Part shown: in pieces, positions 31,458-61,653 of the stretch | Numbering within the stretch: position 1 is the first letter of the stretch | How the letters are laid out: each line of letters starts with the position of its first letter | NCBI GenBank assembly: GCA_002762795.1 | Contig: PCYA01000010.1 | Coordinates: 10,418 to 72,070, forward strand | Reading direction: 5' to 3' | Source of the DNA: Candidatus Woesearchaeota archaeon CG10_big_fil_rev_8_21_14_0_10_37_12 | GTDB taxonomy: Archaea > Nanobdellota > Nanobdellia > Woesearchaeales > ARS49 | DNA: 61,653 bases | Made by a program: the position numbers and the translations under genes | Notes under the pieces: model-generated | Databases searched by the model: none | Seen by the model: only the letters and a program-made list of their open reading frames with translations | Told to the model about the DNA's origin: nothing

Positions 31458-32294
31458 TTATGATAGTTTTTTCTTATTATTAAAATGAATTTCTTTTGCA
31501 TTTTTTGAGGTGACTATCTTTTCTCCTAATCGTTTCTCTATTCTGTCTTTTGCAACTTTTGCTGTTTTTCCACCTTCTCTAGCGATTTCTTTGCTTTTGT
31601 GAAGAGTTGCAGGGTTTTCTTTCTCAGAGATTTCTTTTGTGGCCGCTTCTGCAAGCATATTAAGGATAAGCTCAATATTAGTCATATTATCTCTTAAATT
31701 TTCTTTTTTTAATCCTTTGAATTGCTTATACTCTTTGACTGTCTTGCCAGCCCATGCTTCAGTGATCTCATTAGTGAGAATAGCAAAATCTTCCTGTTTT
31801 GAAATGCCAACCCGGTTCCATTCATCAGTTAATTGTTTTCTGACTTCAATGGTTTTGAGTCTCTGGTTTATCCATTCCTCAGAATATCCTTTTTGCAGAT
31901 AAGTCCTCATTGCCCTGTCGATCGTTAATTCAGGGTCTTCAGTTTCATCAAGTCTCTCTCTTCCAACTTTGGCAAGCCACATTTTGAACGGCTCTGCCTT
32001 CTTTGAGGGAATTGACTGGATTAATCTCAGCAATTGTTCAGTATCTGCTACGTCTGTAGAATAATATTTGCCATCAGCTGCCTTTAATTTCAGTTGGTGA
32101 CAATTTGTCACCGACTCATTTCCTTCCTCACGCAAACGCTGTGCCAGCTTATTCCAGTATTTCCTCGCAGTCTGATATTCATTATCGGTTAATACTGCTA
32201 CAACATCAACTATTGAAAAATACCATTTTTCCTTATCCGAATCCCACTCTACACGGATCTTTTTATCATTGAATAGTTTTATTGCGTTTGTCAT
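31458..32294 (-). CDS. DinD/BRO-N family protein
   Basis: A 278-aa protein with an N-terminal BRO-type domain (VEWDSDKEKWYFSIVDVVAV) and a C-terminal region as in bacterial DNA-damage-inducible DinD, including LTIDRAMRTYLQKGYSEEWI and a late KEIAREGGKTAK. BRO-N proteins bind DNA and are common in viruses and as regulators. DinD interacts with RecA in bacteria. This archaeal copy is probably horizontally acquired. It stands alone between the VOC and racemase genes. Confidence 0.75.
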   Translation of the reverse strand: MTNAIKLFNDKKIRVEWDSDKEKWYFSIVDVVAVLTDNEYQTARKYWNKLAQRLREEGNESVTNCHQLKLKAADGKYYSTDVADTEQLLRLIQSIPSKKAEPFKMWLAKVGRERLDETEDPELTIDRAMRTYLQKGYSEEWINQRLKTIEVRKQLTDEWNRVGISKQEDFAILTNEITEAWAGKTVKEYKQFKGLKKENLRDNMTNIELILNMLAEAATKEISEKENPATLHKSKEIAREGGKTAKVAKDRIEKRLGEKIVTSKNAKEIHFNNKKKLS

Positions 32295-60294: not shown

Positions 60295-60379
60295 AGCCTC
60301 CGAAGGGAGTTGCACCCTCGACCTCGACATGTTTGTTGATTAATACCAATGTCGCGCTATACTACTAAGCTACGGAGGC
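60295..60379 (-). tRNA. tRNA-Thr (GGT) with a 13-nt intron
   Basis: The acceptor stem GCCTCCG/CGGAGGC, D arm GCTTAGTAGTATAGC, anticodon stem CGACA/TGTCG and T stem GAGGG/CCCTT are present. The loop TTGGTA carries GGT and is followed by about 13 extra nt, read as a minimal intron. The T loop is TGCAACT with G where U55 is expected. Discriminator U73 fits archaeal tRNA-Thr. It precedes the CRISPR array. Confidence 0.85.
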
Positions 60380-60463: not shown

Positions 60464-61009
60464 ATCTACAATAGTAGAAATTAAAGCATGCTTCTAGACA
60501 ATGAGCTGTAAAGTTAGCGTCAGGTTTTATCTACAATAGTAGAAATTAAAGCATGCTTCTAGACCTTATCTCTTTAACACCTTGCATTAAACATCTACAA
60601 TAGTAGAAATTAAAGCATGCTTCTAGACATCAAATAAGACTTTTTGTAATTAATATCTACAATAGTAGAAATTAAAGCATGCTTCTAGACGTTCGACAAC
60701 CACGATTAATCCAACATTATCTACAATAGTAGAAATTAAAGCATGCTTCTAGACATTATCACCACGATTACTCTCGATAGCATATCTACAATAGTAGAAA
60801 TTAAAGCATGCTTCTAGACGTCAACCCAAGGAGGAACGAAAAAATGATCTACAATAGTAGAAATTAAAGCATGCTTCTAGACGTTACCCCTCAACGTTGC
60901 TACTTCTTTTATCTACAATAGTAGAAATTAAAGCATGCTTCTAGACCAGAATTTGTCTCGCTTCCAGAAAAACATCTACAATAGTAGAAATTAAAGCATG
61001 CTTCTAGAC
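60464..61009 (-). CRISPR. Type V-A-like CRISPR array, 9 repeats and 8 spacers
   Basis: Nine identical 36-nt repeats start at 60464, 60529, 60593, 60655, 60719, 60784, 60847, 60911 and 60974. Spacers are 26-29 nt. On the minus strand the repeat starts GTCTAGAAGCATGC and ends AATTTCTACTATTGTAGAT; the TCTAC-loop-GTAGA handle is the hallmark of Cas12a crRNA. Transcription runs toward lower coordinates, away from cas2, with the leader at 61010-61231. All repeats are intact, including the leader-distal one. It is very probably the array of a type V-A system. Confidence 0.97.
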
Positions 61010-61231
61010 AGGTAATCTGGTGATTATATAAACCTTTTTTTTCTGTTTTACTTAAATTCCAGTCGTGTGTACATCATTTTAGAGTGTTACATCTAAAACT
61101 CATTTTTCAAGAATGCAATACTATCATTATTTTTATATTTTCCTGAAATTAGCCTCACTGCCTCTTAAAAGAGAGAATTTATGGGATTTAGCAATTTAAA
61201 CGCTAAAAAATTAAGACTGAGGTTTGCAGGT
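61010..61231. other. CRISPR leader / cas2-array intergenic region
   Basis: This AT-rich 222-nt region separates cas2 from the array. Besides the TATA box near the array it contains a TTTAAGAGGCAGTGAGG patch and a run of A/T. No reading frame is supported. It is the expected leader position for new spacer integration. Confidence 0.6.
61021..61038 (-). promoter_or_regulatory. CRISPR leader promoter
   Basis: On the minus strand AAAAGGTTTATATAATCA is a strong BRE plus TATA box about 12-30 nt before the first repeat, so transcription would start at or just inside the first repeat. It shares its core with the tfb and 13.1-kb promoters. Confidence 0.65.
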
Positions 61232-61504
61232 TTAATACATAAGAAGGTCTGTTTCTTCATTTTTAGCATAGCCAAACCTTGATATTTGGTTTTCTGCGGT
61301 TATTTTAAATATCAAAACACTATCTCCTTGATTGAATCTTTTTTCGAAGCGATTCTTAATTTCTTCCTGCACTATTTCGAGAATCCTTTTGCTGTTCTTT
61401 ATTTCATATACTGAATACTGGAGTCTACGCCCATAACTTAAAATGAACTTGGAAAATTCAGTTCTTAAATGGTCGTCTTGAATATCATACGTTAAAATAA
61501 TCAT
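61232..61504 (-). CDS. cas2: CRISPR-associated endoribonuclease Cas2
   Basis: A 90-aa Cas2 with the ferredoxin-like start IILTYDIQDD (catalytic-type Asp near residue 7), RRLQYSVYE and a second strand region with DSVLIFKI. It is the adaptor that joins two Cas1 dimers for spacer integration. Its ATG overlaps the cas1 stop (ATGA). Gene order cas1-cas2-array and the repeat type match type V-A loci. Confidence 0.92.
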   Translation of the reverse strand: MIILTYDIQDDHLRTEFSKFILSYGRRLQYSVYEIKNSKRILEIVQEEIKNRFEKRFNQGDSVLIFKITAENQISRFGYAKNEETDLLMY

Positions 61505-61653
61505 ATGTCTGCCTCAATAGTGAAATTAGGATATTCATCTATTTTTTTTCCTTTTATGAAAGACCTATAATACGATTGAATATATAAGAATATTTTTTCT
61601 TTATGTTGAAGAATCTCCCTTAACATTAATTCAGAATATTTTTTATTAAATTC
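61501..61653 (-). CDS. cas1: Cas1 C-terminal end (partial at window edge)
   Basis: Fifty codons remain inside the window and end EYPNFTIEADI-stop, with SYYRSFIKGKKIDEYPNF resembling the Cas1 C-terminal tail after its catalytic domain. The gene continues beyond 61653 on the minus strand. The stop overlaps the cas2 ATG. Identification rests on position and the tail pattern, so it is less certain than cas2. Confidence 0.75.
   Translation of the reverse strand, partial: EFNKKYSELMLREILQHKEKIFLYIQSYYRSFIKGKKIDEYPNFTIEADI

Follow-up and report, generated by a model that had tools for sequence, protein, structure and literature searches.

Class 2 CRISPR-Cas systems are rare in archaea. In the Cas12a family, Cas4, Cas1 and Cas2 take up spacers, while Cas12a matures its crRNA unaided and cleaves the DNA that matches it. 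Type V-A loci such as that of Francisella novicida U112 combine Cas12a with PREFRAN-type Cas1 and Cas4, a 36-nt repeat with TCTA near its start and the V-A handle at its end, and spacers of 26–29 nt, and the locus described here has the same genes, the same catalytic and processing residues and a repeat and spacers of the same form. Subtype II-D, described in the part of the 2025 classification considered here as the class 2 system widespread in DPANN (PMC12669027), resembles our locus as a class 2 system of small-genome archaea but is based on Cas9, and V-A is not mentioned there in that part. Reshuffling of effectors against a constant background of adaptation modules has already been described and is an accepted general idea (PMC6452270). 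In the open-licence literature we found no report of V-A (Cas12a/Cpf1) in Woesearchaeota or DPANN, an earlier report elsewhere being possible, and no report of effector exchange over conserved adaptation genes and repeats in these archaea. Our analysis points with high confidence to an archaeal chromosome carrying a complete type V-A locus for adaptive immunity, and to a mosaic make-up of this locus, with an archaeal adaptation lineage and a replaced effector cassette.

The window analysed is a stretch of 61,653 nucleotides (G000:C10:10418–72070) whose end is also the end of contig C10 (C10:72070). A CRISPR array of nine identical 36-nt repeats and eight spacers of 26–29 nt occupies 60464–61009 and is transcribed on the minus strand, with its leader end at 61009, in agreement with the repeat and spacer lengths in the first-pass annotation. 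The minus-strand sequence of the repeat is GTCTAGAAGCATGCTTTAATTTCTACTATTGTAGAT, and all nine copies found in the whole genome (up to three mismatches) lie within this array. It ends in the handle hairpin TTTCTACTNTTGTAGAT, as V-A repeats do; the canonical Cas12a handle that had been claimed for its 3′ end was confirmed, as the last 19 nt form a 5-bp V-A hairpin of −4.8 kcal/mol, a stability reached in 0 of 200 shuffles. A leader of 222 bp (61010–61231, minus strand) separates the first repeat from cas2 (61232–61504, minus strand; 90 aa; PF09827 E=5e-14, TIGR01573 above cut-off), which is preceded by the last 50 codons of cas1 (61501–61653, minus strand; TIGR04329 positions 273–316, the type V Cas1 C-terminus). 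The earlier reading that cas1 and cas2 run into the array on the same strand was borne out. Adjoining the leader-distal end of the array is a tRNA gene (60295–60379, minus strand; Rfam RF00005, 52.4 bits) that was missed by ARAGORN, has a long anticodon arm resembling an intron and possibly marks an island boundary. When the gene on the outer flank was used to look for an empty site, only distant homologues (~35% identity) were returned.

The leader contains a palindrome, TTTTAGATGTAACACTCTAAAA, about 108 nt before the handle. Palindromes of the form TTTTAGA-N6-8-TCTAAAA were found 94–108 nt before the handle in the leaders of this locus and of three related archaeal loci introduced below (G362, G032 and G307), and the leaders of two further relatives, G471 and G213, have palindromes at the corresponding site with paired changes (TTTTGA...TCAAAA and TTTGGA...TCCAAA). 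Taken singly the palindrome is mostly within chance, being reached by 4–18 of 100 shuffles in most leaders; it is its conservation across the six leaders that argues for it, and that it binds an adaptation factor is our guess. For F. novicida, in vitro work found at most three bases of the leader to be of importance (PMC13034035). Among the spacers, spacer 6 (60820–60846, GTCAACCCAAGGAGGAACGAAAAAATG) resembles a ribosome-binding site followed by a start codon, and the array of G362 holds two near-identical spacer pairs (L010:4972 and 5948; L010:6013 and 6077), as if acquired from variants of the same virus. Exact matches in viral_contigs were found neither for the cores of six of the eight spacers of the window's array nor for one of the G362 pairs. 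Cas1 relatives were likewise not found in viral_contigs, so there is no sign there of a virus-borne module.

Since the window ends where its contig ends, the cas4 and cas12a genes that had been predicted beyond position 61653 on the minus strand were looked for elsewhere in this genome, on a different contig. A Cas1 search of this genome returned an N-terminal part at C1:1–609 on the minus strand of C1, a contig of 8,010 b that starts inside cas1, and the fragments at the C10 end and the C1 start are the only Cas1 matches that the genome contains. The predicted genes follow on C1: the remainder of cas1 (L002:1–690, minus strand; TIGR04329 positions 1–219), and on the same strand cas4 (L002:668–1246, with 21 N inside; TIGR04328, 229 bits against a cut-off of 70), a Bro-N gene (L002:1246–2103) and an intact cas12a of 1313 aa (L002:2146–6087; TIGR04330, 1427 bits against a cut-off of 300). 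Hence PREFRAN-type cas4, cas1 and cas2 adjoin the effector as in V-A loci, and the assignment to type V-A rests on matches to TIGR04330, TIGR04328 and TIGR04329 across C1 and C10. Neither Cas9 nor a type I effector gene, which according to the first-pass annotation would have spoken against this assignment, adjoins cas1.

We infer the join between C10 and C1. Sequence overlap was not found between the C10 end and the C1 start, so the two contigs are separated by a gap, which lies inside cas1 and amounts to about 53 codons (~160 bp): with a full-length archaeal Cas1 as query, positions 285–332 matched C10 and positions 4–231 matched C1. TIGR04329 accordingly matches in two pieces (224 and 54 bits, with 53 positions missing), to which the whole-gene cut-off of 300 does not apply. 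The two cas1 fragments complement each other and lie at two contig ends, which makes chimerism unlikely. The Bro-N (DinD-like) gene belongs to the PADLOC candidate defence family PDC-S13 and is also found between cas4 and the effector in G307 (L109:2129–2959; 57% identical). Another Bro-N copy (43%) lies at 31458–32294 of the window, and homologous Bro-N fragments occur in the bacterial Cas12a loci L037 and L074.

The C1 effector scored above the Pfam cut-offs for the REC1, REC2, NUC and RuvC_1 domains, as V-A effectors do. Alignment to FnCas12a showed that D925, E1016 and D1266 of RuvC, R1229 of Nuc and the crRNA-processing residues H852, K861 and K878 are all kept, and judged by its sequence the protein looks active. 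An identity as Cas12a2 was ruled out: PDLC01230, the PADLOC model best matched by the Cas12a2 of G307, scored 54 bits on the window's effector in comparison to 1514 for a Cas12a model, and no zinc-ribbon match was obtained for it. PDLC01230 had no matches in the window's own genome at E 0.001.

Contig C10 carries TFIIB (413 bits) and an archaeal-type uL16, which indicate an archaeal host, as had been proposed from the window's sequence, and placement of this host in DPANN is likely. Its genome has a size of 1.35 Mb and a completeness of 99%. Bacterial contamination was rejected in view of the archaeal marker genes together with the split cas1.

Relatives of the locus were sought in 371 genomes drawn evenly from the phylum, in which Cas12a above cut-off was found in three (the window's, G362 and G032) and this kind of Cas4 in four (the same three and G307). 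A Cas1 search of 353 genomes of the window's order yielded G471 and G307. Relatives of the locus are on archaeal contigs too, as seen from an archaeal NAC in G362, an archaeal-type uS10 in G032 and an NcsA-like gene in G307, the last on the contig with the continuation of the effector gene. L014 (JAHYJW010000001.1), a twin of G362, is titled Patescibacteria bacterium yet carries an archaeal NAC, and the label is probably wrong. In total, five archaea of five families possess one cas4-cas1-cas2 lineage with a conserved leader. The repeat is identical in the window's locus, G362 and G032, which represent three families; among these three loci Cas4 is 82–87% and Cas1 about 71–88% identical, and the window's Cas2 is 92–94% identical to those of G362 and G032. 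Cas12a identity is 67% between the window's locus and G362, 35% between the window's and G032, 37% between G362 and G032 and 42% between the window's and G471.

In G307 a Cas12a2 homologue adjoins the archaeal adaptation module (L109:2961–4502 and L123:1–2454, on two contigs overlapping by 127 bp). Its C-terminal and N-terminal halves match PDB 8d49 with 406 and 313 bits, respectively; we take this entry to be SuCas12a2, the record itself reading 'OrfB_Zn_ribbon domain-containing protein'. Guides are interchangeable between Cas12a and Cas12a2 (PMC9811890), which makes effector exchange under a fixed repeat workable. In G213 (L012:400–963) a Cas12a frame leads, after its first part, directly into cas2, reflecting either a deletion of most of cas12a with cas4 and cas1 or an assembly error.

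Trees were built from short searches with SH-aLRT support only, without bootstrap. With 45 bacterial Cas1 sequences from a scan of named genomes included, the five archaeal Cas1 formed one clade (SH-aLRT 99). In the Cas12a tree, the window's protein and that of G362 were sisters (99) nested in a Bacteroidota clade (99–100), G032 fell inside a clade of Spirochaetota, Bacteroidota and Planctomycetota (100) and G471 was placed on a separate branch. A single clade was rejected both for the four archaeal Cas12a (p-AU 9e-7) and for those of the window, G362 and G032 (p-AU 1.8e-8). DNA similarity among the five modules continued through the adaptation genes and ended at the cas4 start codon when the effectors differed, in the pairs G362/G032, window/G032, G471/G032, G307/G032 and G471/G307, which indicates that the effector cassette was exchanged at this point. 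Similarity between the window's locus and G362 also ends near the cas4 start, on account of the Bro-N gene in the former, and resumes in cas12a. The same boundary was seen in bacteria, where two Flavobacteriales loci (L018 and L068) have Cas12a of different clades but an adaptation part and array with 77% DNA identity, the shared DNA starting just before cas4; exchange at this boundary is therefore not special to archaea.

The PAM-interacting (PI) stretch of the window's Cas12a (~612–781) was 12–35% identical to every relative compared, in comparison to mostly 55–77% beside it. The Pfam match to this domain (PF22222) was weak, at 38.8 bits against a cut-off of 27 and 126.7 bits in G362, the best match of the PI domain reached only 64 bits, and the DNA match between the window's locus and G362 has a hole at this stretch. 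Across the clade the PI stretch is likewise the most variable (mean identity 27–35% versus 47–89% elsewhere), so the window's PI domain takes to an extreme a tendency of the clade as a whole. Such strong variation among all relatives fits a fast change of PAM use, and the window's PI domain may have arisen by replacement or by fast divergence. Two compensating frameshifts were rejected as its cause, as the other frames contain stops and the PI motifs are kept. AlphaFold modelled the stretch as folded (pLDDT mostly 75–93), with Cas12a as the best structural matches. By alignment, R674 stands in place of the PAM lysine (FnCas12a K671, AsCas12a K607) and Q606 at the position of FnCas12a N607 and AsCas12a S542; an arginine at the position of R674 is also found in G471, L038 and L079. 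AsCas12a with S542R and K607R makes more use of TYCV PAMs (PMC6212782), and Arg674, corresponding to one of these two changes, leads us to predict a PAM departing from TTTV for the window's Cas12a.

It could be argued that C1 is a misbinned bacterial contig, for example from a member of the Bacteroidota, and that the archaeon itself possesses only the array with cas1 and cas2. The nearest bacterial Cas12a sequences, about 60–62% identical over their full length, are indeed those of Bacteroidota, and the join is made at two contig ends. We nevertheless regard this as very unlikely, as C1 carries precisely the N-terminal part that is missing from the cas1 gene cut off at the end of C10, and its Cas1 and Cas4 are 77–84% identical to the versions in archaeal genomes, while full-length bacterial Cas1 and Cas4 reach at most about 50% and 55% identity to the archaeal kind, respectively. 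Moreover, G362, G032 and G471 hold the same gene block within long contigs, those of G362 and G032 being the ones with archaeal markers, and C1 and C10 differ little in GC content (35.5% versus 36.2%) and only slightly in tetranucleotide make-up. Transfer or inheritance of the whole locus as a unit, with effectors that merely evolved faster than the adaptation genes, would account for the sister position of the window's and G362 Cas12a, which do have part of their history in common. It is hardly credible, given that the G032 Cas12a is 53–57% identical to members of its Spirochaetota, Bacteroidota and Planctomycetota clade versus 35% to the window's, that a single archaeal Cas12a clade was rejected, that similarity at the DNA level breaks off sharply at the cas4 start codon and that Cas12a2 takes the effector place in G307.

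A decaying locus, in which Cas12a has lost interference and the divergent PI domain is a sign of this, would be consistent with the low identity and weak Pfam score of this domain. Loss may occur in this lineage, as the effector gene of G307 has two in-frame stops near L123:220 and G213 is without the adaptation genes and the greater part of cas12a. For the window's locus we consider decay improbable, since its reading frame is open where the other PI frames contain stops, none of the catalytic residues is lost, the model of the PI stretch is folded, the array repeats are all identical and strong variation of the PI domain is common to all the relatives.

In summary, the preferred reading is that of a mosaic V-A locus. 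By analogy with the family, Cas4-Cas1-Cas2 would add spacers, Cas12a would cleave the array transcript at every repeat, producing crRNAs that carry a 19-nt handle, and Cas12a with its crRNA would find and cut matching double-stranded DNA beside a 5′ PAM. The adaptation genes, leader and repeat form the archaeal lineage; on more than one occasion the effector cassette upstream of cas4 has been replaced by kinds of Cas12a with bacterial relatives, and in one relative (G307) by Cas12a2, the direction of these transfers being one that we infer. There is about an even chance that the lineage is an exchangeable-effector platform of fixed leader, repeat and cas4-cas1-cas2, on which cassettes are swapped at the cas4 start between Cas12a kinds and the RNA-triggered Cas12a2, and in which the PI domain is also replaced on its own, giving a PAM other than TTTV. 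The first-pass annotation could not know that the effector and adaptation genes differ in history or that the PI domain is unusual.

This V-A lineage may be seen as a natural experiment on effector exchange, with a common adaptation set, four effector kinds and one breakpoint, in which effector shuffling becomes visible within one subtype at near base resolution. The three loci with the same repeat make it directly testable if one crRNA serves Cas12a proteins that are only 35% identical, and the divergent PI domain provides a testable PAM prediction that is useful for Cas12a tools. In comparison to known V-A loci, the one described here resides in an archaeal host, has adaptation genes of an archaeal lineage, whose Cas1 reaches no more than about 50% identity to full-length bacterial Cas1, carries a Bro-N gene between cas4 and cas12a and has a divergent PI domain, in which the AsCas12a K607 and S542 positions are taken by Arg674 and Gln606. 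Its Cas12a is nested among environmental Bacteroidota proteins (such as those of L078, L018, L015 and L056; about 60–62% identical), whereas the adaptation genes adjoining those effectors, where seen, are different, bacterial Cas1, Cas4 and Cas2, and the repeats differ as well. Several Bacteroidota loci also have, close to Cas12a, a second large gene weakly similar to Cas12a2 that is without counterpart on C1; among bacterial loci such a gene was observed in L015, L019, L026, L036, L046, L053, L056, L058 and L059. SuCas12a2 (PDB 8d49) has its homologue beside the same adaptation module in G307, while the window's effector is Cas12a. As a system, the locus is a V-A system; what is new with respect to the open-licence literature is the occurrence of V-A in this archaeal group with its own adaptation lineage, the exchange of effectors including Cas12a2 and the divergence of the PI domain.
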